From Deltaproteobacteria bacterium (GTDB lineage Bacteria > Myxococcota > JADLHZ01), in NCBI GenBank assembly GCA_020848545.1, contig JADLHZ010000089.1, positions 1-64,000 on the forward strand: a DNA stretch of 64,000 nucleotides. Reading direction: 5' to 3'. This document shows, piece by piece, positions 11,731 to 39,050 of this stretch. Position 1 is the first letter of the stretch; each line of letters opens with the position of its first letter. The notes under the pieces were generated by a model that had not been told where the DNA came from, made no database searches, and saw nothing but the letters and a program-made list of their open reading frames with translations. The position numbers and the translations under genes were made by a program.

Positions 11731-11733
11731 GCG

Positions 11734-12912: not shown

Positions 12913-12920
12913 TCGAGCGC

Positions 12921-14201
12921 TTGAATCAACCACTGGCACATAGACCCGAAGTCCTCGACGCGGTGCACAGAGCCCGTGCCGCGAGCCGCACGCTGCGCGT
13001 CGCGTCCGGCGATAAGCGCAACGCATTCTTGAAACACCTCGGCGAAGCGCTGATGAAAGATCGCGCTGTGCTGCTCACCGCAAACCAGGAAGACGTCCGC
13101 GCGGCGGAGGCGGCCGGCGTGTCCAAGGCGATGCTCGACCGCTTGGCGCTGAACGAGAAGCGGATCGACGATCTCGTCGCCAACGCGCGCGAGGTGCAGG
13201 CCCTGCCGGATCCCGTCGGCGCCGTGAGCAGCACGAAGGTGCTCGCGTCGGGCCTGCGCGTCGAGCGCCGCCGTGTGCCGCTCGGCGTGCTGCTCCTGAT
13301 CTACGAAGCGCGCCCGAACGCGACGATCGAAGCCGCAGCGCTCGCCGTCAAGAGCGGAAACGCGATCGTGCTGCGCGGCGGCAGCGAAGCAGCGAAGACG
13401 AACCGGGCGCTGTCCGGCGTGCTGCAGAAGGCCCTCGCCGCCGCCGACTTGCCGGCGGATGCGGCGACGGTGCTCACCGATCTGTCGCGCGACGAGACGA
13501 TCGCGCTCCTCGCGCTCTCCGACGACATCGATCTCGCGATCCCGCGCGGCGGACCGGCGTTGATCGACACGGTGAAGCAGAACGCGCGCATGCCGGTGCT
13601 CGCCCACGGCCCCGGGATCTGCCACGTCTTCGTCGACGCTGGCGCCGAGCTCGAGCAAGCGGCGGACGTTGCGGTCAACGCCAAGGCCAACCGGCCGGCC
13701 ACGTGCAACGCCGCTGAGACGCTGCTCGTGCACTCGGCGACCGCGGCGGCGTTCCTTCCGATGTTCGGAAAACGATACATGGAAACCGGTGGCGAGCTGC
13801 GTGCGTGCGACGAGAGCGCGGCGCATTTCAAGAAGGCCGGCATCGCGTACAAGAACGCCACGCCCGAGGACTACGCGACCGAGCACTTGGCGAACATCCT
13901 GAACGTGCGCATCGTGGGTTCCTTGGACGACGCCCTGGCCCACATCGAGCGCTACGGAACACGGCACACCGAAGCGATCCTGACCTCGTCGATCAAGAAC
14001 GCCGAGCGCTTCTGCCGTGACGTCGACGCCTCTTGCGTGCTGGTCAACGCCTCGACCAGGCTCAACGACGGCTTTTGTCTGGGATATGGTGCCGAGCTCG
14101 GCATTTCCACTTCCAAGTTCCACGCATTCGGTCCTATGGGTCTCGAGGCCCTGACGATCGAGAAAAACGTCGCCGTCGGAGACGGCCAAACCAGGAGATG
14201 A
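12921..14201 (+). CDS. proA: Gamma-glutamyl phosphate reductase
   Basis: A 426-residue ProA of normal length in the aldehyde dehydrogenase superfamily. It reduces gamma-glutamyl phosphate with NADPH to glutamate 5-semialdehyde, which cyclises on the way to proline. Visible signatures are YEARPNATIE near the substrate site, VLRGGSEA, and the catalytic Cys in NRPATCNAAE. The start is a TTG 8 bp after proB's stop, consistent with coupling; the protein from this TTG has the usual family N-terminus. The 3' end carries the Shine-Dalgarno sequence of the next gene. Confidence 0.97.
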   Translation: MNQPLAHRPEVLDAVHRARAASRTLRVASGDKRNAFLKHLGEALMKDRAVLLTANQEDVRAAEAAGVSKAMLDRLALNEKRIDDLVANAREVQALPDPVGAVSSTKVLASGLRVERRRVPLGVLLLIYEARPNATIEAAALAVKSGNAIVLRGGSEAAKTNRALSGVLQKALAAADLPADAATVLTDLSRDETIALLALSDDIDLAIPRGGPALIDTVKQNARMPVLAHGPGICHVFVDAGAELEQAADVAVNAKANRPATCNAAETLLVHSATAAAFLPMFGKRYMETGGELRACDESAAHFKKAGIAYKNATPEDYATEHLANILNVRIVGSLDDALAHIERYGTRHTEAILTSSIKNAERFCRDVDASCVLVNASTRLNDGFCLGYGAELGISTSKFHAFGPMGLEALTIEKNVAVGDGQTRR

Positions 14202-22555: not shown

Positions 22556-24637
22556 CTAACCCGAAGCCCGGCGAGCGTCACGGCCGTGTGGCGGTTTGGT
22601 CAAATGCGCCACGTCCTGCAACATGGCGCGCATGGTCACGACGTCTTCTTCGCTGACTTCGCCCGAAAAACGCGCGCGCAAGTACGCCGTGGCGAAGCGC
22701 TCACTGAGCGGACGCACCGGCGGATCCTTGTCGGCGACCGCGCGGAAGTAGAGGTTCGGGGGTTGGTGGGCCGGGCGTGGCGCGTGACCACGCTTCTCCA
22801 TCGCGCGCTCGAAGCGTTTGAACAACCGGCTCGCTTCGACCTCGCGCGGCACCGGCGCCGAGCGCTTGCGCCGCAGGAAGACGATCGCGGCAACGACGAT
22901 GAGCACACCACCGGCGAAGTGCCACTTGTGCGCGTTCATCCACACCTTCCACGACTGGTTCTCCGGCAGGTCTGTCGTCGGTGCGGCTTCGAACGAATGC
23001 TTGATCGAGCGAAGCGCCGAGACCTGGAGATCGAGATCGTACTCGATGACGTAGCGGTTCCAGCGGTAGCGCATGAGGTCCGACACCGCGGCGATCTTCT
23101 CCCACACGCCGAAGCTCTCGCGCGCCGACGACACTGGGGTGGGATCGATGCGCCGCCAGCCGCCGTCCTGCGAGCGATACTCGACCCAGCTGTGCGCGCG
23201 GTACTCCTGCACCGCGTAGTACTTGCCGTAGGGGTTGAAGCTCGCGCCTTTGTAGCCGCTGACGATGCGCGCTGGCACGCCGCTCATTCGCAGCATCAAC
23301 GCCAGCGCGCTCGCGTAGTACTCGCAGTGGCCGGCTTTGCGATCGAAGAGAAAGTACGCGAGCGGGCTCGAGCCTTCTGGCGGCGCCTTCATCTCGGTCG
23401 AGTATTTGTACTCGACGCCGAAGCCGTTCTTGAGCGCCGTCGCGATCTCCTCGGCGCTCTTTGCGTCGCCACGCCACTGCTTCGCGAGCTCGCCGATGCG
23501 CGCATCGGTCGCTGGGACGGCAGTCGCGTCGACGTCGTCTTCCTCGCGGCCGTACGCGTTCGGGTCGAACCAGGCGTCGAGCGTCACAGCCATGCCGAGC
23601 GGACGAATAATCGTCACGTCCCCGGAGTCGTCGGTGTAGAGGCGCACGCGCGCGTGGCCGGCGACGAGCGGATTGTCCTGCAGCAGGCGCGCCGTGTGCG
23701 TCAGCTCCGGCAGGAACAGGTACTCGCTCTCGGACGGCTCTTGGTAATAGCGAAAGCGCACGTCGTGTTTCACGTCCTTCCGGTGCAGGAGAAACGTGCC
23801 ATCCGCGCGAAAGTGCACGCCGCTCTGGCCGCGGCTGCTCTTCTGCCAGTGCTTGCCGTCGAAGCGTGAGAGCGTGGCGCCGCGAAAGTAGAGCTGCTCG
23901 GGATCGAAGCCCTCGGGCATGTCGAGGAACTCGAGGCGCGCGACGACCGTCGCGTCGTCTTCGAGCTGACCGCTCATGCCGAGCTCGACGCGATCGGAAA
24001 AGCCCGTGGCGGTCTGCGACGAGCGCAGCTTCGGCTTGAAGTAGCCGAGGCCCATGCGCGGAAAGAGCATGAAGAACATCGTCGTCTGCAAGAAGACGAT
24101 CACCGCGAGCACGCTCGTCGTCACCCAGAAGCGCCGCGAGATGCGCAGCTCCCGCGCGAGCTCGGGCTGCGACTCGGCGGCGCGCGTCAGGTGCGTGGTC
24201 GTCAGCGCCCAGATCGAGCAGATGATGACGAGCACGAAGTACGGCGCGAAGGCGAAGGTCGCGTTCAGCGCCGAGCCCGCGAGCACGACGACGAAGGAGA
24301 GGGTCAGGATCTGCACTGCGTCGTTCGAGGTGCGCTTGGTGAACAGCCGCGAGACCAACACGAGCACGAGGAAAAGCGTGGCGCCCGAAATGATGTCGCG
24401 CAAGCCGTTCCACACCTCGAGCAGCACGCCGCCGAGCAGCATGATCAGGCCGAGGACGACGACGCGCGACTCGCTCCAACGTTCGCGGAGGCGATACGGC
24501 ACGACGAGCGAAGCGCAGGTGGCGGTGAAGATGCCGGCGACGAGCGGCCACTCGAAGGCCTCTGCGGAGAACACAGTGCCGAGTGCGCTGAGCACGAGGA
24601 GATAGAGCGCCATCGTTTGCGCTCGATAAATATTCAT
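22556..24637 (-). CDS. TgpA-type membrane transglutaminase-like protein
   Basis: A 693-residue protein with the TgpA layout. The N-terminal DUF3488-like part has about six membrane segments (residues 1-190). A large periplasmic transglutaminase-like domain follows, with Cys in GHCEYYAS, His in RAHSWVEY and Asp in RRIDPTP, so the catalytic triad is intact. One more membrane segment (WHFAGGVLIVVAAIVFL) precedes a cytoplasmic DUF4129-like tail. TgpA of Pseudomonas is essential and envelope-related, but its substrate is unknown. The gene sits with moxR and DUF58 genes in the usual conserved order, here extended by PBP1A. Confidence 0.93.
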   Translation of the reverse strand: MNIYRAQTMALYLLVLSALGTVFSAEAFEWPLVAGIFTATCASLVVPYRLRERWSESRVVVLGLIMLLGGVLLEVWNGLRDIISGATLFLVLVLVSRLFTKRTSNDAVQILTLSFVVVLAGSALNATFAFAPYFVLVIICSIWALTTTHLTRAAESQPELARELRISRRFWVTTSVLAVIVFLQTTMFFMLFPRMGLGYFKPKLRSSQTATGFSDRVELGMSGQLEDDATVVARLEFLDMPEGFDPEQLYFRGATLSRFDGKHWQKSSRGQSGVHFRADGTFLLHRKDVKHDVRFRYYQEPSESEYLFLPELTHTARLLQDNPLVAGHARVRLYTDDSGDVTIIRPLGMAVTLDAWFDPNAYGREEDDVDATAVPATDARIGELAKQWRGDAKSAEEIATALKNGFGVEYKYSTEMKAPPEGSSPLAYFLFDRKAGHCEYYASALALMLRMSGVPARIVSGYKGASFNPYGKYYAVQEYRAHSWVEYRSQDGGWRRIDPTPVSSARESFGVWEKIAAVSDLMRYRWNRYVIEYDLDLQVSALRSIKHSFEAAPTTDLPENQSWKVWMNAHKWHFAGGVLIVVAAIVFLRRKRSAPVPREVEASRLFKRFERAMEKRGHAPRPAHQPPNLYFRAVADKDPPVRPLSERFATAYLRARFSGEVSEEDVVTMRAMLQDVAHLTKPPHGRDARRASG

Positions 24638-26674: not shown

Positions 26675-27079
26675 CTAGCCTCCGAACAACCGAGCGAGCG
26701 TGAACAACATTCTGCGGCAGGCGAGCCGGAAGCGGATCTTGAACGGCAGCGGCGCCGTGCGGGCGATGCCGACGACGGCGTCAATCGGGATCGGACCTTC
26801 GCCGTGGCGCATGGCATCGCCCCACAGCCACACTTGGTTCGCCCGCAACTTCACGACTCGATGCAAGGTGGTGACGCCAGCGAACACCGCAAGCACCACC
26901 TCGCCTACATGCGGCGGTCGGGTGACGGGATCGATCATCACGACGGTGCCGTCTTGCAGGTGCGGCTCCATCGAGCGGCCGCGCGGCTTGAACAGAATCG
27001 GCTTTCCCGACCGCAATTTCTCGACGAACGCGACTTCATCCTGCGCTTGCGCACGTGCTGAGATGGGAATCTCACTCAT
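26675..27079 (-). CDS. S24/S26 signal-peptidase-like protease, probable Ser/His type
   Basis: About 134 residues with the S24/S26 peptidase core. Box B is GRSMEPHLQDG, giving the nucleophile Ser; then GEVVLAVF, TTLHRVV and a C-terminal WGDAMRHGE block like the GDN box of signal peptidases. At the usual general-base Lys position the sequence has His (LHRVV), as in ER, archaeal and SipW-type signal peptidases. There is one possible C-terminal amphipathic helix and no clear N-terminal anchor. ATG 27079 gives a normal protein; ATG 27100 is possible. The gene could serve the MoxR operon 7 bp downstream, or release peptides for the divergently encoded radical SAM system; both are inference. Confidence 0.7.
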   Translation of the reverse strand: MSEIPISARAQAQDEVAFVEKLRSGKPILFKPRGRSMEPHLQDGTVVMIDPVTRPPHVGEVVLAVFAGVTTLHRVVKLRANQVWLWGDAMRHGEGPIPIDAVVGIARTAPLPFKIRFRLACRRMLFTLARLFGG

Positions 27080-27104
27080 TCTGTGGAAATAGTGCCACAT
27101 CCGC

Positions 27105-27118
27105 TGCGGCCGGCCGCA
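27105..27118. promoter_or_regulatory. Perfect 14-bp palindrome between divergent genes
   Basis: TGCGGCCGGCCGCA is a perfect palindrome in the short spacer between the minus-strand peptidase and the plus-strand radical SAM gene, ending 4 bp before the latter's ATG. A second smaller inverted repeat, GTGG-N8-CCAC, lies beside it at 27083-27098. Such sites can be operators for a dimeric repressor acting on both genes, but GC-only palindromes also arise by chance in high-GC DNA. Confidence 0.35.
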
Positions 27119-27122
27119 AAAT

Positions 27123-28295
27123 ATGCGACGGTTAAGCGTGGGTGACGCGCTAGCAAAGCTCGAAGCGGCGGCCTGGCGCGCGGTCGTTCCGCTTTATGTC
27201 ACCGTAGAGCTCACGCGCCGCTGCAATCTGAATTGCGACCACTGCTATGTCGATCACCACATCAAAGATCAGCTGAGCGTCGAGCAGCTCGACAAGATCT
27301 TCGCCGACGTCGCGCGCGCCGGCGGGCTCTTCTTGGGCTTCACCGGCGGCGAGGTCGGGCTGCGTAAGGATCTGCACGAGATCATCGCCGCCGCGCGCCA
27401 GTACCGCTTCAACGTGAAGCTGCTGTCGACCGCGACGTTGTTCTCGCAGGAGGACATCGAGCGGCTCGCGGCGAGCGGCGTGCGGCAAGTGAAGGTGTCG
27501 ATCTACTCTGCGTCACCTGCGGTGCACGATCGCGTCGTCCGCCGCGCCGGCGCGCACGCGCTGTCATTGCGCGGGATCCGCCGCCTGCTCGACGCCGGCA
27601 TCGAAGTGACGATGGCGTGCCCGATCATGCGCGAGAACAAAGACGAGATCGCGAGCATCGTGGCGTTGGCCGATTCGCTCGGCATCCGCGCCGAGTTCGA
27701 CGGCCGCGTGAATCCGATGGAGAACGGCGGCACCGATCCCTGCTCGTTGCGCATCACCGCCGGCGAGCTCGCAGCGTCGTTCAACGCGGCGCCGGGCCTC
27801 GCCGAGTATCTCATGAAGGGCGGTAGCTCGTGGGAGAACGGCGGCCTCCTACCGCCGCGCGATCCGGACGAGCACGTTTGCAGCGCCGGCAACACGCTGT
27901 GCTTCATCGACTCACGCGGCGACGTGTTCCCATGCGTGTGGTGGCGCGAGAAGATCGGCAACGCGCTTTCAGATGGGTTCTACGAGCTATGGAAGACGTC
28001 GCGGGTATTTGCGCGCATCCGCCAGTTCAAGCTGAAGGACTTGCACGAGTGCCAAGATTGCTCGCTACAACAGCACTGCAGCGTGTGTCCGGGCGTCGGA
28101 TACCAAGAGCGCGGCGACGCGGCGCTGGCGGGATCCTCTGTGTGCAACACCGCCGCCGCGAACAAGCTCTTCTATGATTACGAGCGGCACCGCGTGCCGT
28201 ACGAAGATCCGGGCTACGTCGTGCTCGGCGCGACCGGCGCGAAGGGCGTGGCGCGTGGGATGTCGAAGCGCACGAAGCTGCCGATCCTCGGGTAA
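27123..28295 (+). CDS. Radical SAM/SPASM enzyme, PqqE-like peptide modifier
   Basis: A 390-residue radical SAM protein. The [4Fe-4S] motif is CNLNCDHC near residues 34-41. A GG(E/D) SAM-site motif (FTGGEVGLR) follows. The C-terminal part has many Cys (CSAGNTLC, PCVWW, CQDCSLQQHCSVCPG), the SPASM pattern that binds auxiliary Fe-S clusters. SPASM enzymes such as PqqE, AlbA and MftC modify ribosomal peptides, although some act on proteins or small molecules. No PqqD-like domain is fused at the N-terminus; a separate PqqD-like protein is encoded at 37809-38075. Together with the candidate precursor at 29756 this suggests a RiPP pathway. Its stop lies inside the palindromic repeat at 28294. Confidence 0.88.
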   Translation: MRRLSVGDALAKLEAAAWRAVVPLYVTVELTRRCNLNCDHCYVDHHIKDQLSVEQLDKIFADVARAGGLFLGFTGGEVGLRKDLHEIIAAARQYRFNVKLLSTATLFSQEDIERLAASGVRQVKVSIYSASPAVHDRVVRRAGAHALSLRGIRRLLDAGIEVTMACPIMRENKDEIASIVALADSLGIRAEFDGRVNPMENGGTDPCSLRITAGELAASFNAAPGLAEYLMKGGSSWENGGLLPPRDPDEHVCSAGNTLCFIDSRGDVFPCVWWREKIGNALSDGFYELWKTSRVFARIRQFKLKDLHECQDCSLQQHCSVCPGVGYQERGDAALAGSSVCNTAAANKLFYDYERHRVPYEDPGYVVLGATGAKGVARGMSKRTKLPILG

Positions 28296-28388
28296 AAAGG
28301 TCCCAGGGACCTATTTTCTGTCCAACTTCTGGACAGTCGCCCCGGGTGTACAGAATCTGGACAAAATAAAGGTCCCTGGGACCTTTTT
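28294..28388. repeat. 95-nt palindromic intergenic repeat, copy A (probable bidirectional terminator)
   Basis: A 95-nt element with 19-nt perfect terminal inverted repeats, AAAAAGGTCCCAGGGACCT at the left and its complement at the right; each end is itself nearly palindromic. An inner hairpin, CTGTCCA-N5-TGGACAG, lies at 28317-28335. It fills exactly the space between the stop of the radical SAM gene and the stop of the convergent beta-helix gene. Transcribed from either side it gives a stem followed by five U residues. A second copy, inverted and about 89% identical (10 differences, most in the central loop), lies at 45368-45463. Confidence 0.85.
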
Positions 28389-29716
28389 CACGGCGTGAAC
28401 ACCTTGGCGATCGCGACGCCGTAGGGCTTCGCCTTCTCTTCCGCCGGGAAGGGCAGGTTCGCCAGATCGAGGCCCATGCGCGGCGCGAAGTTCTTGATCG
28501 CCACGGTGCCGCCGTCTTTGTTCACGCCGAACATGCCGCGAATGTCGTTCATGACGGTCTTCTTCGCGCTGACGCTCGACGAGTCGGCGGCGCCGAGATC
28601 GACGAGCGCGACCGGCACCTTCGGATCCATGACGACGTTGTCCTTGAACTCGTACGGGTAGTCGTCTTCCATGTGCGGCTTCAGGACGACGATCTGGTGC
28701 TTCGGGTTCGGGCCGAACTTGCCGGTGAAGACGCCGGCTTCCGGGCGCGCGTCGCCGAACAGGGTCGCGTTCATGTAGAAGAGGTTCGAGACGAACTTCA
28801 TCTTCGGCATGCGCCCGGTCGGCCAGTCGTGCTGCATGGCGCCGCCGGCGTTGTAGGCGAAGAGATTGCCCTCGACGACGAGCTCTTGGCACGCGTCCTT
28901 GTGCCACAGCTCGAGCGCGCCGACGTTCGACGAGGTCGGATCCGGATTGTACGGCCAGTTCAAGATCACCGAGTTGTTCTTGAAGTTGATCGTCTTCGTC
29001 TTGAAGCCCTTGTAGAGCGCCGGGAAGAACTTCACCGGGATGATCGTGTTCAGGAAGAAGTTGTTCTGGATGTCGGCGACGGCGTCGTTCGACATCGGCG
29101 AGTGATACACTTCGAACGCGCGCTGCGCCCCGTTCAAGAACACGTTGTCGGCGATGACCAGGTGGTTCGTCACCACTTGCTTCAACGCGATCAGCGGGAT
29201 CGTGCGCGACGTTCCTTTGAGCAAGCTGTTCGTCTTGGCATCGTACTTGTTCGACGGCGCCGCATCGAGCACAAAGCCGCTGATGACGAGCGTGCCGATC
29301 AAGGTCTTGTTGCCGCCGAAGTTGAAGAACGCGTCCGGGCGACCATCGTCCGAGAGGATCTCACTCGGACACTTGAACGGGTTGCGCTCCTTCCAATCAG
29401 GGCAATAGCCGCCGAGGATCATGAGCGAGCCCTTCGGCGCGGTGAGGCCGCCTTGCGAGAAGCCGAAGAGCCCGCCCTCTTTGCCGGAGAACATGATGCG
29501 CACGTCGTTCTCGGTGTTCTGGAGGAGCTCGCCGGCCTTGGCGAAGCCCTTCGCGAGCTTCGGAAACCAGAACGAGGTCTTCCCGTCGGCCATGGCTTCG
29601 GCCGCCTTGTGCGCGGGTGTGTCGCGCTCGGCGACGTAGATCTTGATGGTCTCGGCGCGGGCCGTGGCGGTGACCGCGAAGCAAAGGGCGAAGACGGCGA
29701 GTGAAGTTCGTTTCAT
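28388..29716 (-). CDS. Secreted right-handed beta-helix protein
   Basis: A 442-residue exported protein. The signal peptide is residues 1-21 (SLAVFALCFAVTATARA). The mature part has repeated segments rich in N-x-(V/F)-F-x-N patterns, for example IADNVFLNG, IQNNFFLNT, FKNNSVILNW, VEGNLFAYNA and FVSNLFYMN. These fit the turns of a pectate-lyase-like parallel beta-helix. There is no recognisable catalytic site, so it may bind or process a polysaccharide, or be structural. It follows the candidate peptide precursor by 39 bp on the same strand and may be the last gene of that operon. The ATG at 29716 starts the signal peptide directly. Confidence 0.7.
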   Translation of the reverse strand: MKRTSLAVFALCFAVTATARAETIKIYVAERDTPAHKAAEAMADGKTSFWFPKLAKGFAKAGELLQNTENDVRIMFSGKEGGLFGFSQGGLTAPKGSLMILGGYCPDWKERNPFKCPSEILSDDGRPDAFFNFGGNKTLIGTLVISGFVLDAAPSNKYDAKTNSLLKGTSRTIPLIALKQVVTNHLVIADNVFLNGAQRAFEVYHSPMSNDAVADIQNNFFLNTIIPVKFFPALYKGFKTKTINFKNNSVILNWPYNPDPTSSNVGALELWHKDACQELVVEGNLFAYNAGGAMQHDWPTGRMPKMKFVSNLFYMNATLFGDARPEAGVFTGKFGPNPKHQIVVLKPHMEDDYPYEFKDNVVMDPKVPVALVDLGAADSSSVSAKKTVMNDIRGMFGVNKDGGTVAIKNFAPRMGLDLANLPFPAEEKAKPYGVAIAKVFTP

Positions 29717-29755
29717 GGCACGTGTTCATGCCAGAAGCGGGCAGCGGCGCAAGAT

Positions 29756-29917
29756 TCAGGAACCTTGACGAGAAATCGGCGCGCGCTCGCAGCTCGCGAT
29801 CTTGCCTTGGCACGCGAGCGCTTGCCGCTCGAACACTTCTTCGGTCGTGATCGCCGGCGGCTCGTACGGGCGCCGCTCCTTGCGTTCGAGCGGCTTTTTG
29901 TCGTCGTCCGGCTTCAT
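29756..29917 (-). CDS. Small RiPP-precursor-like peptide (53 residues)
   Basis: A 53-residue peptide. The charged N-terminus (MKPDDDKKPLERKERR) leads into PYEPPAITTEEVFERQALAC and then a short tail with Cys36 and Cys43 (QGKIASCERAPISRQGS). A Y-x-P-P-x-(I/L)-x-x-E-x-(F)-E segment followed by ALAC is reminiscent of the leaders that PqqD-like recognition domains bind, such as the YxxP motif of lasso-peptide leaders. I recall similar small proteins in other deltaproteobacteria but cannot verify it here. Its ATG overlaps the giant gene's TGA (ATGA), which fixes the start and implies coupled translation; an ATG at 29929 is an alternative. The radical SAM enzyme and PqqD-like protein would be its partners. 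Confidence 0.6.
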   Translation of the reverse strand: MKPDDDKKPLERKERRPYEPPAITTEEVFERQALACQGKIASCERAPISRQGS

Positions 29918-32900
29918 CGCCACAACCATAGCGCAGAATTCGTCGTGCTGCCCAGCCGTCCCGCAGCGCCGACCTGCGACGCGCCGGCGCCAGCGTGCGT
30001 CTTCGCGTCGAACACGTTCACGCCCGGGCCGTTGCCGGCGCTCGCGTTGCCGCTGATCTCGGCGATCACCCGAAACACGTTGCCGTTGTCGCAGGTCGTC
30101 GGCTCGCGCGTCACCACGTAGAGGCGCGAACGGAAGCTGGTGCCGCCGGACTCGCCGACGAAGAAGTCGGCCTTGCCGTCGCCGTTGAAGTCGCCGGCTG
30201 GCGCGGCGCTGTTGCCCTTCGGAAAAATGTTCTCTTCGAGCGGTGGGTTCGTCACGTGCTTCGTCACATTGCACGAGTCGTCGAGCGACGGGCCGAAGGC
30301 GCTGATCGGATGCAGGTCGTTGATCTCGTGCGCGTTCGGGCGCGCGACGGTGGTCATGCTCGTGCACGTTGGGCCGGGCGCGAAGAAGTCGTCGCTGCCG
30401 GACAGCGCACGCAGGCTGCCCTTGTCGGGTGCACCGACGCGCGAGCGCACGAGCAACCAGTCGTGCGTCGCGTCGCTCAAGCGGCCGACGTTCGCGATGT
30501 TGAGCAGCGTCTCCGGGGGCGCAGTGTCGCAACGCTGTAGCGCAGCACCGGCGCCGCCCTTATAGAAACGGATCACCGTCTCCGGGCATGTGGAGAAGAA
30601 GCCGTACGACGACGCCACGTCGCGCTTGCCGTCGCCGTCCATGTCTGGCACCGCGACGGCGACGTCGTAGGTCGGAGGGCCACAGTCGTTGAACGGCCCG
30701 AGGCGCGTGACTGCTGCGTTCTGGCCCGCCGTGAGCGCGCGCAGATCGAGCACGGTCGTCGACGCCGGCGGGCTCAGGGCGAACAACGGCGCGCCGCCTT
30801 TCAAGATGAACGCTCCCGGTCCGCTCGCGTCTTGCATCGACGCGTCGGCGATGACGAGATCATCGGGGCCGTTCGTCGCGTTGACGTGACCCGCCTGCAT
30901 GTCCCAGCCGAGCAAGCCGAACGACGAGAAGACCGGATCGAGCGTGGCGCTGCCGCCGTGGATGATCACGTGTGGACACTTCGGCGTCGGCACGAGCGCG
31001 AAGCCGCAGCTCGCTTCACGCAAGAGCTTCGGGTTTGTGCCGCTCGAGTCGCCGGTGCCGTAGTAGATGTAGACGGTGCCGGAAGGCTGGCCGTCCGGGC
31101 CGTAGCCGCTCGGCGCGGAGATCGCGAGATCGGCAGCGCCGTCGCCGTTGAAGTCGCCGCCGGCCATCGCTTGTCCGAAGTACTGCGCGAACGCGGTCGG
31201 GCTTCCGGGCGGCGGCGGCAAAATGATCTCGCGCGGGGTGAAGCGCTCACTCGCCGGAGCGAACGCGGCGTTGCGCGCTTTCTTCGACGAGTACAAGCGC
31301 ACGCCGCCGTTCTCGCTGGCGACGGCGATCTCGACGCCGCCGTCGCCGTCCATGTCGCCGACCGCGATCGCCGAGTAGACTTGCCCGCCGGCCCAGGTGT
31401 CGAGCGCCGGCGGTGAATCGTCGGCGCGATCGCCTGCCGCGCGCGTTCCCGTGCGGGTCATCGGCGAGAGCGGTGCGCCGATCGGCACGAGCGGCGACAC
31501 GCGCATCACGCTCACCGGATCGCTGAAGTTGCCGACGTCGTCCTCCGCGCGCACGGCGAAGCACAGGCGCTGGTGCACCGGCACGCCGCCGGTCACAGAG
31601 AGCGTCTGCGTTTGCCCGGGCGCGAGCACCGGCGTCGCCGCGGTCGGGACGAAGAGCGCGCTCATCGCCGTCACGCCCGATGTCAGTAGAGTATTACACA
31701 GCGCCGCGCTCGTCGGCTGATCGTCCGTGATGCCGACTTGCACGCGGTACGCGGCGACGTTGCCGACGCTGCCGCCCGCGGCGCCGCGCGAGGTGAAGCG
31801 CAGCACGGCCTTGCCCGTGCGTGCGTCGCACTTGCCGCCCGCACACAGCGCTGCGCACGCAGCGTCGTCGGCGTAGAGTCCGGCGTCTGCCGGCGCCGGC
31901 GTCGGCGACAGCGACTGTCCGAGGCACACGATCGCGTCGTTCACCGCGGCTGGCGGATCGACGTTGACGCGCATCCGCAGGCTCTTGTCCGTCGCCGGCA
32001 TGCCGTTCTGTGATGTCGTCGCGCAGTCGCCGGCGAGGTTGCACACCGTCGCCGTGATCACCTGCGTCGTGGTCGTCGCCGGCGCGCCTGCGGTCACTGC
32101 CGTAGGAATACTGACGTCGTTCGAGAACGTGGCGGCGTTGGCAGCGACCGTCGTCTGCGTCGTTCCGGTCATGGTCGTCACCGAGCTCGTCAGCTTCGCC
32201 GTCCCGCCGTTGGCGTCCTGCACGGCGAGCTTCACGGCGAGACCTAGCCGGAATTGAAAGCCCGGCGCCGGCTGCGCGTCGAGGAGCAGCCCGAGCGCTT
32301 CAGTCCCCGGCCCTTCGATCGCCCGCACGGTCATGCCCGGCGTCGCCCCCGGCGCCGCGTTGAAGTGCGCGTCGGCGAGCCACTGCGGGTCGAAGGTGAC
32401 GCTCGGGGCGACGTTCACGGTGTTGATGCCCGAAACCTCGTTGATGCCGATGACGTCGCTGACGCTGCAGTCGTTGCCTTGGTGCAGCTCGGCGCGAATC
32501 GTGTACGGCGTGCCCGTCGGCAGCGAGACGTTACCGAACACCAGGTTCTGCGGGTTCGTCGCCGGCGCGCTCACGACTTGATCCACGGACACGCTCGCCG
32601 CCGGCACCGTGAGCCGCACGCAACGCGACGCCGCTGGCACCGATGGCGTGAACAACAGGCTCACGCGCAGATCGGTCGCGAACTGCGTGCCGACCGGCGT
32701 GACGACCACGTTGTGCCGCACGCCGAGCGTGTCGCCCGACTGCAGTGGACGTCCGAGATCGCCTGCGCCCGGCGCGTTGTCGAAGCCGCGCTGGATCGCG
32801 ACGATGGCGCCGGAGAACGCGTCGAGCTCCACGTGGCGCGCGGCCGACGTCGAGAAGTTGCCGTAGCGATCGCGCGCTTCGAGGCGCAGCCGCCAGAAGG

Positions 32901-35900
32901 TCGCCCGCTCGAGGCCCGGCGCTCCGTTCGGCGCAAGCGCTTCGATCAACGCCGCCGCGAGATCGGCCGCAAGCCCGCCCTTCTTGCTCGCATGCACCTC
33001 GATCGCCGGCGCGAGCGGCATGCCCGACGCATCGAGCGGCTCTCCGAGCAAGCGCACGGTGTAAGCGCACGAGTCTCCCGCGATCTGACACGCCGTCGTC
33101 TGCGTGCCGCTCGTGGTCAGGCGATACACTCCGCTCGCGTACCAACGCGGACACAAGGGTGGCGGCGACGGCGACGTTCCGGGATCGCCCGGCTGATCCG
33201 GACACTCGCCAGGATCGTCGTCGAAGCCGATCTCACAGCCGCTCGAGCTGAAGCTGCTGCACGTGCCAGGGACGGCGCTCACTTCGAGCACCGGCGCGCC
33301 GTTCGTCGCCAGCGTGTCGACGGTGTAGTCGACGGCGCTGGCGACCGTCACGTTGCCGGCGCCATCGGCCGCTTCGCCGACGACGGCGTTCGTTCCTTCG
33401 GCGAGGTTCGTCGCGATGATCGGCATCGCGCTCGAGCCCATCGCGAGCCCTGGCGCGCTGCAGGCCGTGAGGCAACGCGTGCCGCTCGTGCGCACACACA
33501 CGCAGCCGCCGCCGAGCTGCAGGTCGTCGGCGACGCCGAGCAGCACGTCGACGTTGCGGCCGGTCGGTGCGAGGCACAAGCCCGGTGTCAGGCACGTGTA
33601 CGGCGCTTGATCGGGCTGCGCGACGAGCAACACCGGCGGCGAGAGATCGACGACCACGCTCACGGTCTGCATGCGCGAATTTCCGCTCGGCGTGGTCGTC
33701 ACGAGCGTCAGCGTGTGCACGCCAGAAACGAGCGCGGCGATCCCGCTGAACACGATGCTGTTGCCGCTGAACATCGCGGTGCCAGCGAGCGCGCCTTGCA
33801 ACGACGAGCTCACCGACGCCGTGGCGAGGTCATTCGTCGCCGACGGGAAGGTGAAGGTCAGCGAACCGATCTGTAACGATCCGCCGTTGACCGTTCCTTC
33901 AGCGCGATAGGTCGAGCCGTCGTAGACGTTGCTACCGAGCTGCAGGACGATCGGATTCGCCTTGTCGTTCGCCAAGATGTTGCTCATCGAGGTCACGCTC
34001 GAGATCGTCGGCGGCAGCACCGAGTCGACGCGCACCGGGAACGACATCTGCGCCGGCGAGACTCCGAACGCGCCGCTCATCGGCACCACTTCTACAGCGA
34101 GGCCGTAGGGCGTGGCGCCGCTGTCGATGAGCCGCACGTTGCCGAAGATCTTCTGCGTGACGTTGCCGCCGAGCGACACGCTCTGGCCGCTCGCGAGGAC
34201 CTTCCCCGGTACGTGCGCGCACGGCGCAGCGCTCACCAACGCCGGATCGTTCGCCGTCGAACAGAGGTGCACGTCGGCGCCGGCCGGCAGGTTCAAGATC
34301 GTGACGAGGACTGAAGCCTGCACGCCGGCGTTCACCGGGTCTTCGTCGTCGTTCGTCGCGTTCAGGAACGTGACGGTCGTTGTATCGACGAAGTCGACGC
34401 GCGGCGTGCGGAAGCTGACGACCGGCGTCGTCGGATCGATCGTCGGGGTGCACACCGCCGACTGCGCCACGTTGTCCGCGGCATCGTGCGCTGCGCCGAC
34501 GAACGACGCGGTATACGTGGTGGCCGGCGACGGCACTGGAAACGCGATGGTCACGTCGGCAGCGTTTCCGAGGACAGGGCCAGTCGCGCTGACGACACCG
34601 TTCGGCGCGGTCGTCGTCACCGTCACGAGCGCGCCATCGAGCACGTCGGTCGTCGTGTACTCGGCGCGGTGCTCGACGGCGTTGAACGTTCCGGCGTCGT
34701 CGAAGGGATTGAACTGCGCGATCGTCATCGGGCACGCGTCGAGCGTCACGGTCGGCGGCACGCGATCCACAAGCGGCGTCACCGATCCCGTCGCCGACAA
34801 CGCGCCGAACGCGTTCGGCACGTCCGCGTCGAGGCGAACCTGCTCGCCGGCCGGCATCAACGTCGGCGACAACGTCAGCGCGCGAAACGTCGCTTGGCCG
34901 CCGGTGATCGGCGCCGTCGCAGAAGCGATCAGCGTGTCGGCCGGCAGCGCGAAGACTTGCAAGGTCGCGAGCGTGCCGTCGTCGGCGCCGACCGCGATCG
35001 TCACGTCTTGCTGATAACCCGCCGTCGCGCTCACGTCCGGCGCGAGCGCGTTGAAGTAGTACGCCGGCGCGCTCAGATGCACGCCCGTCGCGTCGAGGAA
35101 GGTCACGCCCGGCGCGCTGCTCCGATAGTGGAAGAGCAAACGCTGCGACGTGAAGGTGTCGCCGCCGCCGGTGCAGCGCACGAGGAAGGTGTGATCGCCG
35201 TCGCTCAACGCGCCGAGCGCGACCGCGCCGAAGCTGACGCTCGTGGCCGTCGAGCCCACGACCGACGCGCCGGCGATCGCCGCGTCGTCGCGATAGAGAT
35301 CGCAGTCTTTGCTGCCGCTGTCGGTGTCGAAGCTGACCGTGACGCTGCCGGGGCCGAGCTCGGCGCCATACAATGGGCTCGTGAGCTGCACGCGGCGATT
35401 GGCGTTCGCGCCCGCGTTCACCGTCACGTCGAGGCTCACCCACGGCGAACGCACGGGTGGCAGCTTCGTCGCGTTTTCGGTCACGCGCAGCCACAAGCGC
35501 ACGGTGTCGTTGGCCCACAGGGAAAAATCGATGTCGGAGAGATCGAGCACGCCGCCCGCAGGCACCGTCGCGCTGCGCGTGATCCACACGTCGCTCGCTG
35601 CCGGGGTCACGACGCCCGTGCCGGTGACTGCGAGCTCGACTGTCGCCGCGGCAGGCACCGCGTTCACGCGCGCCAGGACACGCACGTCGAAGCCGTCGGT
35701 GAGATCGGCGTCTTGATCCGGCGCCGCCAGCAGGACGGGCGGCGACGCGAGCCCGGTGATTCCGTTGACGCCGGTGAACGCAATCGTCGGCGCGCCGTTC
35801 GACACGAACACGTTGCGGGTGAGCGTCGTCGTGTTCTTCTTCGCCCCGTTGCGATCGTCGACCTCGACGCGCAGCACAGCACCCGGGGCCGCGACGGTCG

Positions 35901-37812
35901 CGCTCAAGGTGACGAAGATCTGCTCCCCCATCAGCGTCGCCGCCGGCACGAGCTCCGAGTCAGCGAGCGCCGCGCCGTTGTACACGCGCACCTCGCGCTC
36001 TTGCGGCTCGCCGTCGAGCTGCACGACGACGGACAGCGCGCCTGCTGGGACCACGTCGCCGTCGCGCGGCGAAGACACGTCGGCAAACGGCGCCGTCGCG
36101 TCGACCTGCACTTTGATCTTCGGCGAGCGCACGACGTGGGTGTTCAAGAGCGTCGCCGTCGCTTCGATGCCGTCGATGATCCCGCTCGGCGCCGGGCCGT
36201 CGCTCAAGCTCACCGGCACGATCTGCGGAGACGCCGAGTAGGTAAAGAACGTCGGCGCTTGGCCTGGGACGACGACCGATCCCGGCCGCCCGTTCAGGTG
36301 CGCCGCGTGCGCGATCTCGACGGTGAACGGCGCTTGCAGGCCCGGCGTGCCAGCGTCGACGTCGTCTTGCAGCGTGAGCAGCGTGATCTGCTCGGGCGAC
36401 GCTGTGTAGCTCGGCATGGTGATCGCGAGCTCGGCGTCGATGACCACGGCGACGAAGGTGATGACGCGCACCACGGCGTTCCCGGCGGCATCGCGCACCG
36501 TGAACAACAACTCCGTCGGCCCGTCGACCAATGTCACGCCGGGGATCGTGAAGCGCCCGATGCTCGCCGTCTGATCGAAGCACTCCTTGTCGGCCGGGTT
36601 CGCGAGCACGGCCTCCGCTTCGTAGTCCGTGATGACGCCATCGGCGTCGGTGACCCGCAGGAGCTGCACGGCGCCCTCTTCGATCCCGAGCGCTTCGCCG
36701 CGCGCGGTGATCTGAAAGCCGGGGAGCATCGGGTCGTCGTCGAGCAGCATCGGCGCCGAGCCCGAGTCCGGCGCAACGAAAGACACGAGCGGCGGCATCG
36801 TGTCGACGACGTATAGATTGTCGAGCGCGCGTCCTTCACGACCGCCCGCTTCGCTCACCGTCGCAAAAACGATGTTCGCATTTTGATACATCGGCACGTC
36901 GGCAAAGGTGACGAGGCCGCCGCTCACCGTGCCCATGATCGACCGAGAAGCCGGCAAGCGGCACTGGGTGGCGCCCGCGCTCTCGTCGTACACGGTGCCG
37001 TCGACAACCAAGGTCGCAGTGCTGCCGTCCGCGCACGTCGTCGACAGCACCACTTGCCGCGCCGGCGCGAGCGTGCCGGCGTCGCCGTCCTTCAGCGGAT
37101 CGTGCAGGAACGAAAAACCGTCGGGGGGCTGCAGCTCCGCGAGGCAACGTCCGGTGTCGACGACGACGTCGGCGGTCGCTTCCTTCGGCAAGAGATCACC
37201 GCGCACTTCGAGCGTGTTCGGCCCTTCGGCGAGGTCGACGCTGGGGGCGACGGCACGGCCGCGCGCATCGAGCACCACCGTCTTCGGCCGCCGCGCGTGC
37301 ACACCGACGGTGAGCTCCGTCCCTTCCGCCAAGCCGACGCACCCGATCGCCAAGTCGAGCTGCACGCCGGGCCGCAGCGCATCGACGTCGTCCGGCGTGC
37401 CGAGCAGGTCACCGTCGCGCGGCGCGATGAAGTCGCAGATCGAGCCCGTGCCATCGACGGTGACGGTGATCGCGGTCTCCACCCCGCGCGACGACGCGAC
37501 GAGCGTGACCTCGCCGACCGGCAGCGTGACGCCGAGGAACACGAGGTCTCCATCGATCGCCGCGATCGACAGCGTTTGATCGCCGACAACGAGCGTGACG
37601 CGATCACCCGGCAGCGCCCACGCCACCATGAGGTGCACGTCGATCTGCACGCCGTCGAGCGCGACCGACGTGTCGTCGATGAACGACAGCGCCGCGCCGT
37701 CAAAAGGCGAAGAGAACTCGAGCGTCACCGGCGGCGGCGGCTCGGCGACGTACGCGCCGCACCCGCGACACGCCGCGAGCGCGCACAACATCGCGGCGAG
37801 GGCGACCCTCAT
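29914..37812 (-). CDS. Giant surface lipoprotein: Ig-like repeats and C-terminal FG-GAP beta-propeller
   Basis: A 2632-residue exported protein. The N-terminus MRVALAAMLCALAAC is a lipoprotein signal with lipobox LAAC. Residues about 25-2100 are a long series of beta-rich modules with Ig/cadherin-like hallmarks (such as AVDGAGNV-type, DAAGNAVVRVI, DTMPPLVSF, DRVPPTVTL and ATDKSLRM segments). Residues about 2140-2632 contain FG-GAP/VCBS blades with calcium-loop motifs: GDMDGDGG, GDFNGDGAAD, PDMDGDGKRD and GDFNGDGKAD, as in integrin alpha propellers. It is probably a surface adhesin or display scaffold. I chose ATG 37812 for the signal peptide; it overlaps the PqqD-like gene's stop, and its own stop overlaps the small peptide start, so all three are coupled. 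Confidence 0.85.
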   Translation of the reverse strand: MRVALAAMLCALAACRGCGAYVAEPPPPVTLEFSSPFDGAALSFIDDTSVALDGVQIDVHLMVAWALPGDRVTLVVGDQTLSIAAIDGDLVFLGVTLPVGEVTLVASSRGVETAITVTVDGTGSICDFIAPRDGDLLGTPDDVDALRPGVQLDLAIGCVGLAEGTELTVGVHARRPKTVVLDARGRAVAPSVDLAEGPNTLEVRGDLLPKEATADVVVDTGRCLAELQPPDGFSFLHDPLKDGDAGTLAPARQVVLSTTCADGSTATLVVDGTVYDESAGATQCRLPASRSIMGTVSGGLVTFADVPMYQNANIVFATVSEAGGREGRALDNLYVVDTMPPLVSFVAPDSGSAPMLLDDDPMLPGFQITARGEALGIEEGAVQLLRVTDADGVITDYEAEAVLANPADKECFDQTASIGRFTIPGVTLVDGPTELLFTVRDAAGNAVVRVITFVAVVIDAELAITMPSYTASPEQITLLTLQDDVDAGTPGLQAPFTVEIAHAAHLNGRPGSVVVPGQAPTFFTYSASPQIVPVSLSDGPAPSGIIDGIEATATLLNTHVVRSPKIKVQVDATAPFADVSSPRDGDVVPAGALSVVVQLDGEPQEREVRVYNGAALADSELVPAATLMGEQIFVTLSATVAAPGAVLRVEVDDRNGAKKNTTTLTRNVFVSNGAPTIAFTGVNGITGLASPPVLLAAPDQDADLTDGFDVRVLARVNAVPAAATVELAVTGTGVVTPAASDVWITRSATVPAGGVLDLSDIDFSLWANDTVRLWLRVTENATKLPPVRSPWVSLDVTVNAGANANRRVQLTSPLYGAELGPGSVTVSFDTDSGSKDCDLYRDDAAIAGASVVGSTATSVSFGAVALGALSDGDHTFLVRCTGGGDTFTSQRLLFHYRSSAPGVTFLDATGVHLSAPAYYFNALAPDVSATAGYQQDVTIAVGADDGTLATLQVFALPADTLIASATAPITGGQATFRALTLSPTLMPAGEQVRLDADVPNAFGALSATGSVTPLVDRVPPTVTLDACPMTIAQFNPFDDAGTFNAVEHRAEYTTTDVLDGALVTVTTTAPNGVVSATGPVLGNAADVTIAFPVPSPATTYTASFVGAAHDAADNVAQSAVCTPTIDPTTPVVSFRTPRVDFVDTTTVTFLNATNDDEDPVNAGVQASVLVTILNLPAGADVHLCSTANDPALVSAAPCAHVPGKVLASGQSVSLGGNVTQKIFGNVRLIDSGATPYGLAVEVVPMSGAFGVSPAQMSFPVRVDSVLPPTISSVTSMSNILANDKANPIVLQLGSNVYDGSTYRAEGTVNGGSLQIGSLTFTFPSATNDLATASVSSSLQGALAGTAMFSGNSIVFSGIAALVSGVHTLTLVTTTPSGNSRMQTVSVVVDLSPPVLLVAQPDQAPYTCLTPGLCLAPTGRNVDVLLGVADDLQLGGGCVCVRTSGTRCLTACSAPGLAMGSSAMPIIATNLAEGTNAVVGEAADGAGNVTVASAVDYTVDTLATNGAPVLEVSAVPGTCSSFSSSGCEIGFDDDPGECPDQPGDPGTSPSPPPLCPRWYASGVYRLTTSGTQTTACQIAGDSCAYTVRLLGEPLDASGMPLAPAIEVHASKKGGLAADLAAALIEALAPNGAPGLERATFWRLRLEARDRYGNFSTSAARHVELDAFSGAIVAIQRGFDNAPGAGDLGRPLQSGDTLGVRHNVVVTPVGTQFATDLRVSLLFTPSVPAASRCVRLTVPAASVSVDQVVSAPATNPQNLVFGNVSLPTGTPYTIRAELHQGNDCSVSDVIGINEVSGINTVNVAPSVTFDPQWLADAHFNAAPGATPGMTVRAIEGPGTEALGLLLDAQPAPGFQFRLGLAVKLAVQDANGGTAKLTSSVTTMTGTTQTTVAANAATFSNDVSIPTAVTAGAPATTTTQVITATVCNLAGDCATTSQNGMPATDKSLRMRVNVDPPAAVNDAIVCLGQSLSPTPAPADAGLYADDAACAALCAGGKCDARTGKAVLRFTSRGAAGGSVGNVAAYRVQVGITDDQPTSAALCNTLLTSGVTAMSALFVPTAATPVLAPGQTQTLSVTGGVPVHQRLCFAVRAEDDVGNFSDPVSVMRVSPLVPIGAPLSPMTRTGTRAAGDRADDSPPALDTWAGGQVYSAIAVGDMDGDGGVEIAVASENGGVRLYSSKKARNAAFAPASERFTPREIILPPPPGSPTAFAQYFGQAMAGGDFNGDGAADLAISAPSGYGPDGQPSGTVYIYYGTGDSSGTNPKLLREASCGFALVPTPKCPHVIIHGGSATLDPVFSSFGLLGWDMQAGHVNATNGPDDLVIADASMQDASGPGAFILKGGAPLFALSPPASTTVLDLRALTAGQNAAVTRLGPFNDCGPPTYDVAVAVPDMDGDGKRDVASSYGFFSTCPETVIRFYKGGAGAALQRCDTAPPETLLNIANVGRLSDATHDWLLVRSRVGAPDKGSLRALSGSDDFFAPGPTCTSMTTVARPNAHEINDLHPISAFGPSLDDSCNVTKHVTNPPLEENIFPKGNSAAPAGDFNGDGKADFFVGESGGTSFRSRLYVVTREPTTCDNGNVFRVIAEISGNASAGNGPGVNVFDAKTHAGAGASQVGAAGRLGSTTNSALWLWR

Positions 37813-38075
37813 GCAACGACCCGGCGGATCATCCCGCGCGTCTCGAGCGAATGTATGAATTTTTCCACGTCGTTCGCGGCCGTCTCGCGCTCGACCGAAA
37901 ACTCCTCGACGACCGAGTCGACGATCGCCGCGAGCGACGTCTTGCCGTCGCAACGATCGAAGACCCACGTGCCGACGGCGTTCAAGCTGTGAATCTTCGA
38001 GTCCTCGGCGGTGATGATGAACGCTTCGCCGCCGATCGTGCGGTGATCGATGTCGGGGGATTTGTCGAAGTACAT
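37809..38075 (-). CDS. PqqD-like peptide recognition protein
   Basis: An 88-residue protein matching the PqqD/RRE fold. It opens with short beta-strands (GGEAFIITAEDSKIHSLNAVG), then the conserved helix TWVFDRCDGKTSLAAIVDSV and a winged-helix end (DVEKFIHSLETRGMIRRV). PqqD binds the leader of PqqA and presents it to the radical SAM enzyme PqqE; related domains serve many RiPP pathways. It heads the minus-strand operon and overlaps the giant gene by ATGA. Its natural client is probably the 53-residue peptide at the far end of this operon and its enzyme the radical SAM protein at 27123. I chose ATG 38075 for normal family length. Confidence 0.82.
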   Translation of the reverse strand: MYFDKSPDIDHRTIGGEAFIITAEDSKIHSLNAVGTWVFDRCDGKTSLAAIVDSVVEEFSVERETAANDVEKFIHSLETRGMIRRVVA

Positions 38076-38203: not shown

Positions 38204-38264
38204 CCCCGCAACTTCATGACGCGGTGTGCCGATAAGGCTCGGTCACCAAGACGAGGGTAAACGT

Positions 38265-39050
38265 ATGCAAAAGATCGCACTGACCATCGCATTCTCGGCC
38301 GCCACCATCGCGTGCGGCACCGCCGGCAAAGGCACCGACGCCACCGGCAAAGGCAGCTCGACGCCGCTCGGCACGCCAGACGCGACGGCCGTCGAGAGCC
38401 TCGCCAACGCGTGGGCGGTCGCCAGCGAAGACGACCTGCCCGAGTGCGACACCGCGCGCCGCGGCCAGCTCTACTTCGTCGAGAGCGACGACACCTTCCG
38501 AGTTTGCCGCGCGACCGGCTGGGCCGAGATCGATCTGAAAGGCGCTGACGGCGCGACCGGCGCCAAAGGTGCGACGGGCGCTGCAGGTGCTGCCGGTGCC
38601 ACGGGTGCGACCGGCGCCGCTGGGGCGACGGGTGCGACCGGCGCCAAGGGCGCAACTGGTGCCAAAGGCGCGACGGGCGCCGCCGGCGGAAGCGGCAGCG
38701 GAGGCGGCGGCTTCGACATCGCGGCGAAGCTCGACTGCGCGGCCTACAAGCAAGGCTGGTACCTCGAGTACACAGGCGTGCGCTTCACGAACAACATGCT
38801 CTTCGTCAGCTGCGTCGCGTCGGGCAGCACGATGCAATCGTCGGCGTCGACGATCTACTCGGAAGCGCAAGCGGGCAGCGACGACGGCTACTGCGCCGTC
38901 ACCTTCGACACCGACGGCACTGCCAGCTACGGCTACTGGGAATTCACCTACACGAACTTGGAAGTCATCTACAAAGATCCGGGCAGCCCGTACAACGGCT
39001 TCACCTTCCAGTTCGATCTCGCGGCCGACTGCGTCGAGATCTCTCAATGA
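38265..39050 (+). CDS. Collagen-like lipoprotein
   Basis: A 261-residue protein with lipoprotein signal MQKIALTIAFSAATIAC. Residues about 93-140 are sixteen consecutive Gly-x-y triplets, nearly all GAT, GAA or GAK, then a Gly/Ser stretch. The C-terminal 110 residues form a compact domain with three Cys (LDCAAY, VSCVAS, YCAVTF, ADCVEI). Bacterial collagen-like proteins form trimeric stalks that display such heads at the surface. GAGGG precedes ATG 38265. It is divergent from the PqqD-giant-peptide operon, so it may belong to the same surface system; that link is positional only. Confidence 0.82.
   Translation: MQKIALTIAFSAATIACGTAGKGTDATGKGSSTPLGTPDATAVESLANAWAVASEDDLPECDTARRGQLYFVESDDTFRVCRATGWAEIDLKGADGATGAKGATGAAGAAGATGATGAAGATGATGAKGATGAKGATGAAGGSGSGGGGFDIAAKLDCAAYKQGWYLEYTGVRFTNNMLFVSCVASGSTMQSSASTIYSEAQAGSDDGYCAVTFDTDGTASYGYWEFTYTNLEVIYKDPGSPYNGFTFQFDLAADCVEISQ
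38541..38684 (+). repeat. Tandem nonamer repeats encoding Gly-x-y triplets
   Basis: Sixteen 9-bp units, roughly GGCGCGACC or GGTGCGACG variants, encode the collagen-like triplets of the lipoprotein. The near-identity of the units makes copy-number change by slippage likely. Confidence 0.85.

Follow-up and report, generated by a model that had tools for sequence, protein, structure and literature searches.

The window analyzed here, a 64,000-nucleotide stretch of DNA, comes as a single contig from the 8-Mb genome of a Deltaproteobacteria bacterium, and its genes were called as six-frame ORFs. A radical SAM/SPASM gene on the plus strand converges with a minus-strand operon that encodes a PqqD-like protein, a giant lipoprotein, and a small peptide. 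The features of the locus are listed below.

22556–24637, minus strand: TgpA-type transglutaminase gene, beyond the MoxR gene
25690 to about 26670, minus strand: MoxR ATPase gene, close downstream of the S26 peptidase gene
26675–27100, minus strand: S24/S26-family (archaeal-type signal peptidase I-like) peptidase, 141 aa; proposed leader peptidase
27123–28295, plus strand: candidate radical SAM/SPASM maturase gene, 390 aa, with Pfam matches; convergent with the minus-strand operon
28298–28386, unstranded: two facing terminator-like stem-loops that share the stem AGGTCCCAGGGACCT, located between the convergent ends of the radical SAM gene and the operon
28388–29716, minus strand: secreted 442-aa protein, separated from the peptide gene by a 39-bp gap
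29756–29917, minus strand: putative precursor peptide, 53 aa, MKPDDDKKPLERKERRPYEPPAITTEEVFERQALACQGKIASCERAPISRQGS
29914–37812, minus strand: giant lipoprotein, 2632 aa, with Ig-like repeats and C-terminal FG-GAP propeller-type repeats
37809–38075, minus strand: PqqD-like stand-alone RiPP recognition element (RRE), 88 aa from MYFDKS, Pfam PqqD 1.4e-17

All genes named in a first-pass annotation of this DNA are present, with Pfam support for radical SAM/SPASM, PqqD, and FG-GAP. The two ATGA junctions that it had reported can be read directly in the sequence; the stop codon of PqqD overlaps the start of the giant at 37809–37812, and that of the giant overlaps the start of the peptide gene at 29914–29917. 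We set the PqqD start at MYFDKS because this form fits homologues better than an alternative longer ORF that extends to 38189. The S26 peptidase gene diverges from the radical SAM gene, as annotated, and may instead share an operon with MoxR in this genome, since MoxR follows it closely. A scan for sigma-70-like promoters gave no match, an absence that is uninformative. The gene annotated as encoding a secreted beta-helix protein exists, but its product (442 aa) matched no Pfam family, NCBIfam family, or PDB chain that would speak to its fold, and it has no homologue in sister loci; it is known from the window locus only and does not count among the conserved members. Divergent from the PqqD gene lies a collagen-like lipoprotein gene (38226–39050, plus strand) with GATGAKGATGAA repeats and the lipobox IAC. 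A GATGST-repeat ORF in another genome (G051, L155) is far larger, comprising 6142 codons and remaining open at the contig end.

The radical SAM protein matches the Pfam families Radical_SAM (1.5e-23) and SPASM (1.5e-8). It carries the CxxxCxxC cluster as CNLNCDHC (C34, C38, and C41) and a complete SPASM domain with seven cysteines (C253, C271, C310, C313, C319, C322, and C341), and it lacks a recognition domain of its own. Its nearest solved structures are SkfB (4.4e-41) and PqqE (8.9e-34), and it falls below every curated equivalog cut-off listed. Comparison with plasmids returned distant homologues only (<29% identity), and the alignment of radical SAM relatives is too diverse for a pattern scan. 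The S26 peptidase retains the catalytic residues Ser43 (GRSMEP), His80 (LHRVV), and Asp95 (GDA); its best model, the NCBIfam archaeal SPase I, scores 23.5 bits, below the cut-off of 51.85. A catalytic trio of the Ser-His-Asp type has been reported for LppS of the linear polyphosphorylated peptide (LPP) RiPPs (PMC13381572). The giant has the lipobox LAAC, an FG-GAP match of 7.4e-20, and weak Big_13 matches. AlphaFold2 models of its C-terminal 543 residues (pLDDT 43.7) and N-terminal 601 residues (pLDDT 44.6) were too poor to use.

The small peptide consists of a leader reading KERRP-Y18EPPAI...F29ER and a core, LACQGKIASCERAPISRQGS, that carries Cys36 and Cys43. We aligned 35 precursors on the leader motif, such that Pro and Tyr/Trp (position 0) are fixed by construction (35/35 each). 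I, V, or L occupies position +5 in 34 of the 35 peptides, K or R position −3 in 31, and F position +11 in 17. These features fit the [Y/W]xxPx[L/V/I/F/A] leader motif to which the recognition elements of lasso and LPP systems bind (PMC13381572; PMC12710340). Among solved structures, the PqqD profile is nearest to the leader-binding RREs TbiB1 (5v1u), 9x8z (9x8z_B), TfuB1 (6jx3), and 9x90. With PDB chain 9x8z_B taken as LppB, and N33 and D70 placed there by spacing and neighbouring residues, N70, D107, and F111 of the window PqqD (126-aa numbering) align with LppB N33, D70, and F74; the Asn-Asp spacing is 37 residues in both proteins. Across 12 loci, the Asp and Phe are kept in all 12 and the Asn in 10. 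Mutation of N33 or D70 in LppB weakens binding of the YxxP leader (PMC13381572). Recognition of the leader by the PqqD-like element, as predicted from these residues, is well supported at the sequence level. The proposal in the first-pass annotation that the small peptide would be a partner of the PqqD-like protein is strongly supported by sequence comparison on three grounds: the YxxP leader of the peptide, the retention of leader-binding residues in PqqD, and a gene order conserved in many families.

This conservation emerged from searches for relatives of the peptide, radical SAM protein, and PqqD within the same phylum; the search beyond the phylum was a single pattern scan. The order of PqqD, giant Ig/FG-GAP lipoprotein, and short peptide, for which the first-pass annotation had suggested a co-occurrence search, was seen again in at least 30 loci, which represent about 16 Myxococcota families, as counted in metagenome-assembled genomes (MAGs) with short contigs. 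The named loci recovered belong to Myxococcota or ‘Deltaproteobacteria’ MAGs, and a search of genome contigs with the single window peptide gave no match. Giants in sister loci are 1.2–3.4 kaa in length, stand directly after PqqD, and are usually followed by a short ORF containing YxxPx[ILV]. An HprK-like kinase gene comes next in most sister loci, often together with a radical SAM gene and an S26 peptidase gene, homologues of which occur in many of them. The kinase is absent near the window locus, and its nearest homologue in this genome lies at C84:74521. Members of the HprK-like family retain the P-loop together with the invariant His and Lys.

To score peptides, we counted ORFs of 38–90 codons that contain YxxPx[ILV] and start between −50 and +45 bases from the preceding stop. 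Such ORFs stand behind the giant in 24 of 26 loci, compared with 7 of the 446 other genes there; five of these seven plausibly encode precursors and belong to related RiPP loci (L081, L144, L145, L147, and L150). One of the two giants that fail the test precedes a precursor in which Met replaces I/L/V (L143); the other (L121) is truly without a precursor. As a second control, 22 FG-GAP proteins longer than 1000 aa were sampled from the same genomes regardless of PqqD. Two were followed by a YxxPx[ILV] ORF, one of which identified a further PqqD-giant-peptide-HprK locus (L167), while the other was spurious; FG-GAP giants not beside PqqD thus gave one spurious match in 21. The architecture and leader motif recur across families more than chance would allow. 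Across the phylum, many FG-GAP giants lack an adjoining PqqD, which in part bears out what the first-pass annotation had named as contrary to its proposal, but giants beside PqqD almost always have the peptide and the others lack it.

The giant and RiPP modules can part, because each is also found alone. L121 (2814–8572, plus strand) contains a PqqD-giant pair joined by an ATGA overlap, but genes for a precursor, a kinase, and a radical SAM enzyme are all missing; it may be a remnant or reflect a separate use of PqqD. L210 (7438–9847, plus strand) and L150 (9941–12386, minus strand) contain PqqD, radical SAM, YxxP peptide, and HprK genes without a giant and represent a sister RiPP type, with the peptide strings LLALCAFGG...CEVC and LSMCKTGG..., respectively. 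The existence of such loci implies that the giant is dispensable for biosynthesis. Among neighbour genes common to at least three loci, no conserved exporter was found.

Several arrangements were noted in passing. In genome G022, L080 (8469–8985 of C18, minus strand) encodes two tandem LxC-type YxxP precursors with no PqqD close by, about 300 kb from that genome’s own locus and near a 1411-codon FG-GAP ORF on the other strand; these may be extra substrates used in trans. L206 (10850–14300, plus strand, G043) is a probable true lasso cluster without a giant, comprising a PqqD-containing ORF, an ORF with an asparagine-synthetase-like start, and the precursor YSKPELRRHGGLLEVTRAQGTG.... In five loci (L063, L064, L066, L076, and L082), the gene immediately before PqqD encodes about 497 aa, and it is SpoVR by Pfam in L063; by eye, one gene of this type lies further upstream of PqqD in L209, and thioredoxin-like genes lie just upstream of PqqD in another five loci.

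Over its N-terminal as well as its C-terminal region, the window giant is about 30% identical to the giants of three named MAG loci. A strict pattern finds a lipoprotein signal in 18 of 33 giants, and most others show a relaxed form by eye (FGC, PGC). Myxococcaceae-type genomes (e.g., G049) encode, in this order, an S26 peptidase, PqqD, a secreted protein of about 1030 aa, a YxxP peptide, and HprK. In both cases scanned, the ~1030-aa protein contains a PQQ/BamB-type propeller region, and one of the two has weak Ig-like matches. The recurring slot between recognition element and precursor is occupied by a large secreted propeller-ended protein rather than by one sequence family, since the PQQ-type propeller replaces FG-GAP there in Myxococcaceae.

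Peptide tails vary together with the enzymes encoded nearby. When radical SAM proteins of giant-bearing and giant-free loci were placed in one tree, labels changed 5 times compared with 14.4 in shuffles, indicating strong clustering. The first radical SAM subfamily is present in 9/9 LxC-tailed loci versus 2/18 loci with other tails, and none of the 16 loci devoid of this enzyme has an LxC tail; these counts are not corrected for shared ancestry. A second subfamily (L113, L117, L124, L126, L127, and L128) forms one clade and is accompanied by YGxFxRPPP/YGPFRxxPRR tails. No radical SAM gene was detected near HprK in loci with Cys-rich tails (L143, L148, and L182–L185) or the Myxococcaceae tail (WEQPFVALAQ...C...ECxP). 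Loci with YGPFRxxPRR tails were considered as radical SAM-free, which was rejected because a divergent clade member directly follows HprK. A protein arginine methyltransferase (PRMT) as partner of Arg-rich tails was likewise rejected; it occurs in one such locus only (L113), and another adjoins an LxC-type locus (L065). In L113, a single 730-codon ORF (10899–13091, plus strand) joins radical SAM and PRMT-like methyltransferase domains. Next to the second radical SAM subtype, L117 (6774–7631, minus strand) and L124 (6586–7638, minus strand) encode an S26-like N-terminal part fused to a GNAT acetyltransferase domain, a hint of acetylated cores. Ser or Thr is the last residue of several LxC tails; because lasso kinases already known phosphorylate C-terminal Ser, this is no more than suggestive of kinase action. 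The first-pass annotation had the radical SAM enzyme modify the peptide. No LxC tail was found without the subfamily to which this enzyme belongs, and the enzyme likely modifies the peptide core; the modification itself stays a candidate.

Among known systems, the closest parallels are with LPP and lasso RiPPs. LPP RiPPs, reported as restricted to Bacillota (PMC13381572, 2026), also combine a stand-alone RRE, a YxxP leader, an HprK-like kinase, an archaeal-type S26 peptidase, and a variable core. However, the window locus lacks the nearby kinase found in most sister loci, and the present loci belong to Myxococcota, separate RRE and precursor by a giant propeller lipoprotein, and use two radical SAM subtypes. 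The full LPP leader YxxPxVLxHQxIxFETxxS is absent here; common to both are only YxxPx[IVL] and a later F (here at +11). Neither an LPP-type NTP transferase nor an MsbA-like transporter was recognized among neighbour genes common to at least three loci. The lasso bsf cluster of Bradymonas shares a YxxPx[L] leader, stand-alone B1 RRE, and HprK-like kinase with these loci; an FG-GAP protein borders that cluster and was presumed not to be involved (PMC10368454). That study independently records a comparable neighbour. In contrast to lasso peptides, the core here lacks the lasso ring pattern and the giant lies inside the operon. Neither an Asn-synthetase-like cyclase nor a B2 transglutaminase-like peptidase was found among the window neighbours scanned, and the TgpA transglutaminase (22556–24637), located on the far side of the MoxR gene, is not a B2. 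SPASM radical SAM RiPPs (SkfB/sactipeptides, PqqE, and mycofactocin MftC) likewise pair a radical SAM/SPASM enzyme with a PqqD-type helper and a short Cys precursor, but the present loci differ in the YxxP leader, surface giant, kinase/peptidase set, and lack of an equivalog-level score. A PQQ/mycofactocin identity (PqqE, PqqD, MftC) was rejected because all scores are below curated equivalog cut-offs. Other Myxococcota FG-GAP/Ig-like giant lipoproteins resemble the giants described here in domain make-up and lipoprotein export, but they are not beside PqqD and have no YxxP peptide behind them. We conclude that the locus is a RiPP gene cluster of a new layout with lasso/LPP-type leader logic and not, by itself, new chemistry.

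These comparisons suggest a model, which we consider reasonably probable, in which a RiPP pathway makes a modified peptide that works together with the propeller protein on the cell surface. The N-terminal half of the peptide (KR-P-Y-x2-P-x-I-x5-F) would dock on the stand-alone PqqD-like element, leaving the C-terminal half as the core. The SPASM radical SAM enzyme would then modify the core, most likely in the L-x-C/second Cys region, by a thioether or similar linkage. The archaeal-type S26 peptidase may remove the leader near F29-E-R, by analogy with the LPP enzyme, which cleaves only with the RRE present and after F-E-T (PMC13381572). In most sister loci, the HprK-like kinase would also act on the peptide. 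The giant lipoprotein is predicted to be exported and anchored by its N-terminal Cys, and translational coupling would keep its synthesis in step with that of the peptide. It would bind or carry the mature peptide, most plausibly at the C-terminal propeller, a role we infer from the translational coupling, the export signal, and the terminal propeller.

Present data fit this display model and also one in which the giant is the producer’s receptor, immunity, or sensing protein, binding the exported peptide of its own cell or a neighbour rather than displaying it. As with a ligand and its receptor, the giant is conserved overall and the peptide tails differ from family to family; coupling of the precursor and binder genes would hold such pairs together, and RiPP loci without giants would make the giant an added function. 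Against this, the giants scanned revealed neither signalling nor transport domains, and the loci share no conserved exporter or further immunity-type gene; we regard this alternative as unlikely. Strict adjacency and coupling of the genes, the giant being by far the largest investment, and the retention of PqqD and giant alone in L121 would also be expected if the giant were the end product, matured or activated by the enzymes and the modified peptide acting as covalent appendage, chaperone, or cofactor. However, the ligands known for PqqD-type domains are short leader peptides, the YxxP leader is on the peptide, and the L121 giant exists without peptide, kinase, or radical SAM gene, which leaves this explanation distinctly improbable.

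Two further explanations would deny the giant any part in the pathway. It could be an unrelated adhesin that entered the operon by chance, with PqqD, peptide, and radical SAM alone forming one system, as might be argued from the abundance of FG-GAP giants without PqqD and from PqqD-rSAM-YxxP-HprK loci without giants. We find this very improbable because in about 16 families the giant stands between PqqD and peptide, often overlapping, the same slot in Myxococcaceae is filled by a different propeller protein, and other giants have no such peptide behind them. Least credible of all is that the peptide is consumed for a small redox cofactor, like PQQ or mycofactocin, beside a merely co-transcribed surface protein. 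The radical SAM protein can indeed be aligned with MftC (1e-33, 117 bits) and with PqqE along most of its sequence, PqqD is present, and the E-x3-Y string of the peptide (E14-Y18) resembles PqqA. Nevertheless, scores are far under equivalog cut-offs (117 versus 265 for MftC, 91 versus 381 for PqqE), E occupies that site in only 7 of 35 peptides, no C-terminal residue pair is conserved, and cores vary in length and content.

We found no paper in the literature searched that joins PqqD and FG-GAP or describes the PqqD-giant-peptide arrangement. The arrangement is real, conserved, and apparently undescribed, as the first-pass annotation had supposed for a giant inside a RiPP operon.

RiPPs are usually regarded as secreted natural products or cofactors, and Myxococcota are known for predation and contact-dependent behaviour. 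That a conserved operon sets the giant between recognition element and precursor suggests a peptide modification pathway serving a cell-surface machine. A broader and more doubtful possibility is that surface-mounted RiPPs extend across the phylum, with modified peptides synthesized alongside anchored giant fibres and carried on their propeller tips; varied chemistries (two radical SAM subtypes, Cys-rich cores, and kinase-only loci) would then share one display architecture with a role in contact-dependent recognition, adhesion, or attack by myxobacteria. The version in Myxococcus- and Corallococcus-like genomes makes these ideas testable in organisms with genetics, and the rule of a YxxP peptide after a propeller protein provides a simple search key for many unrecognized precursors.
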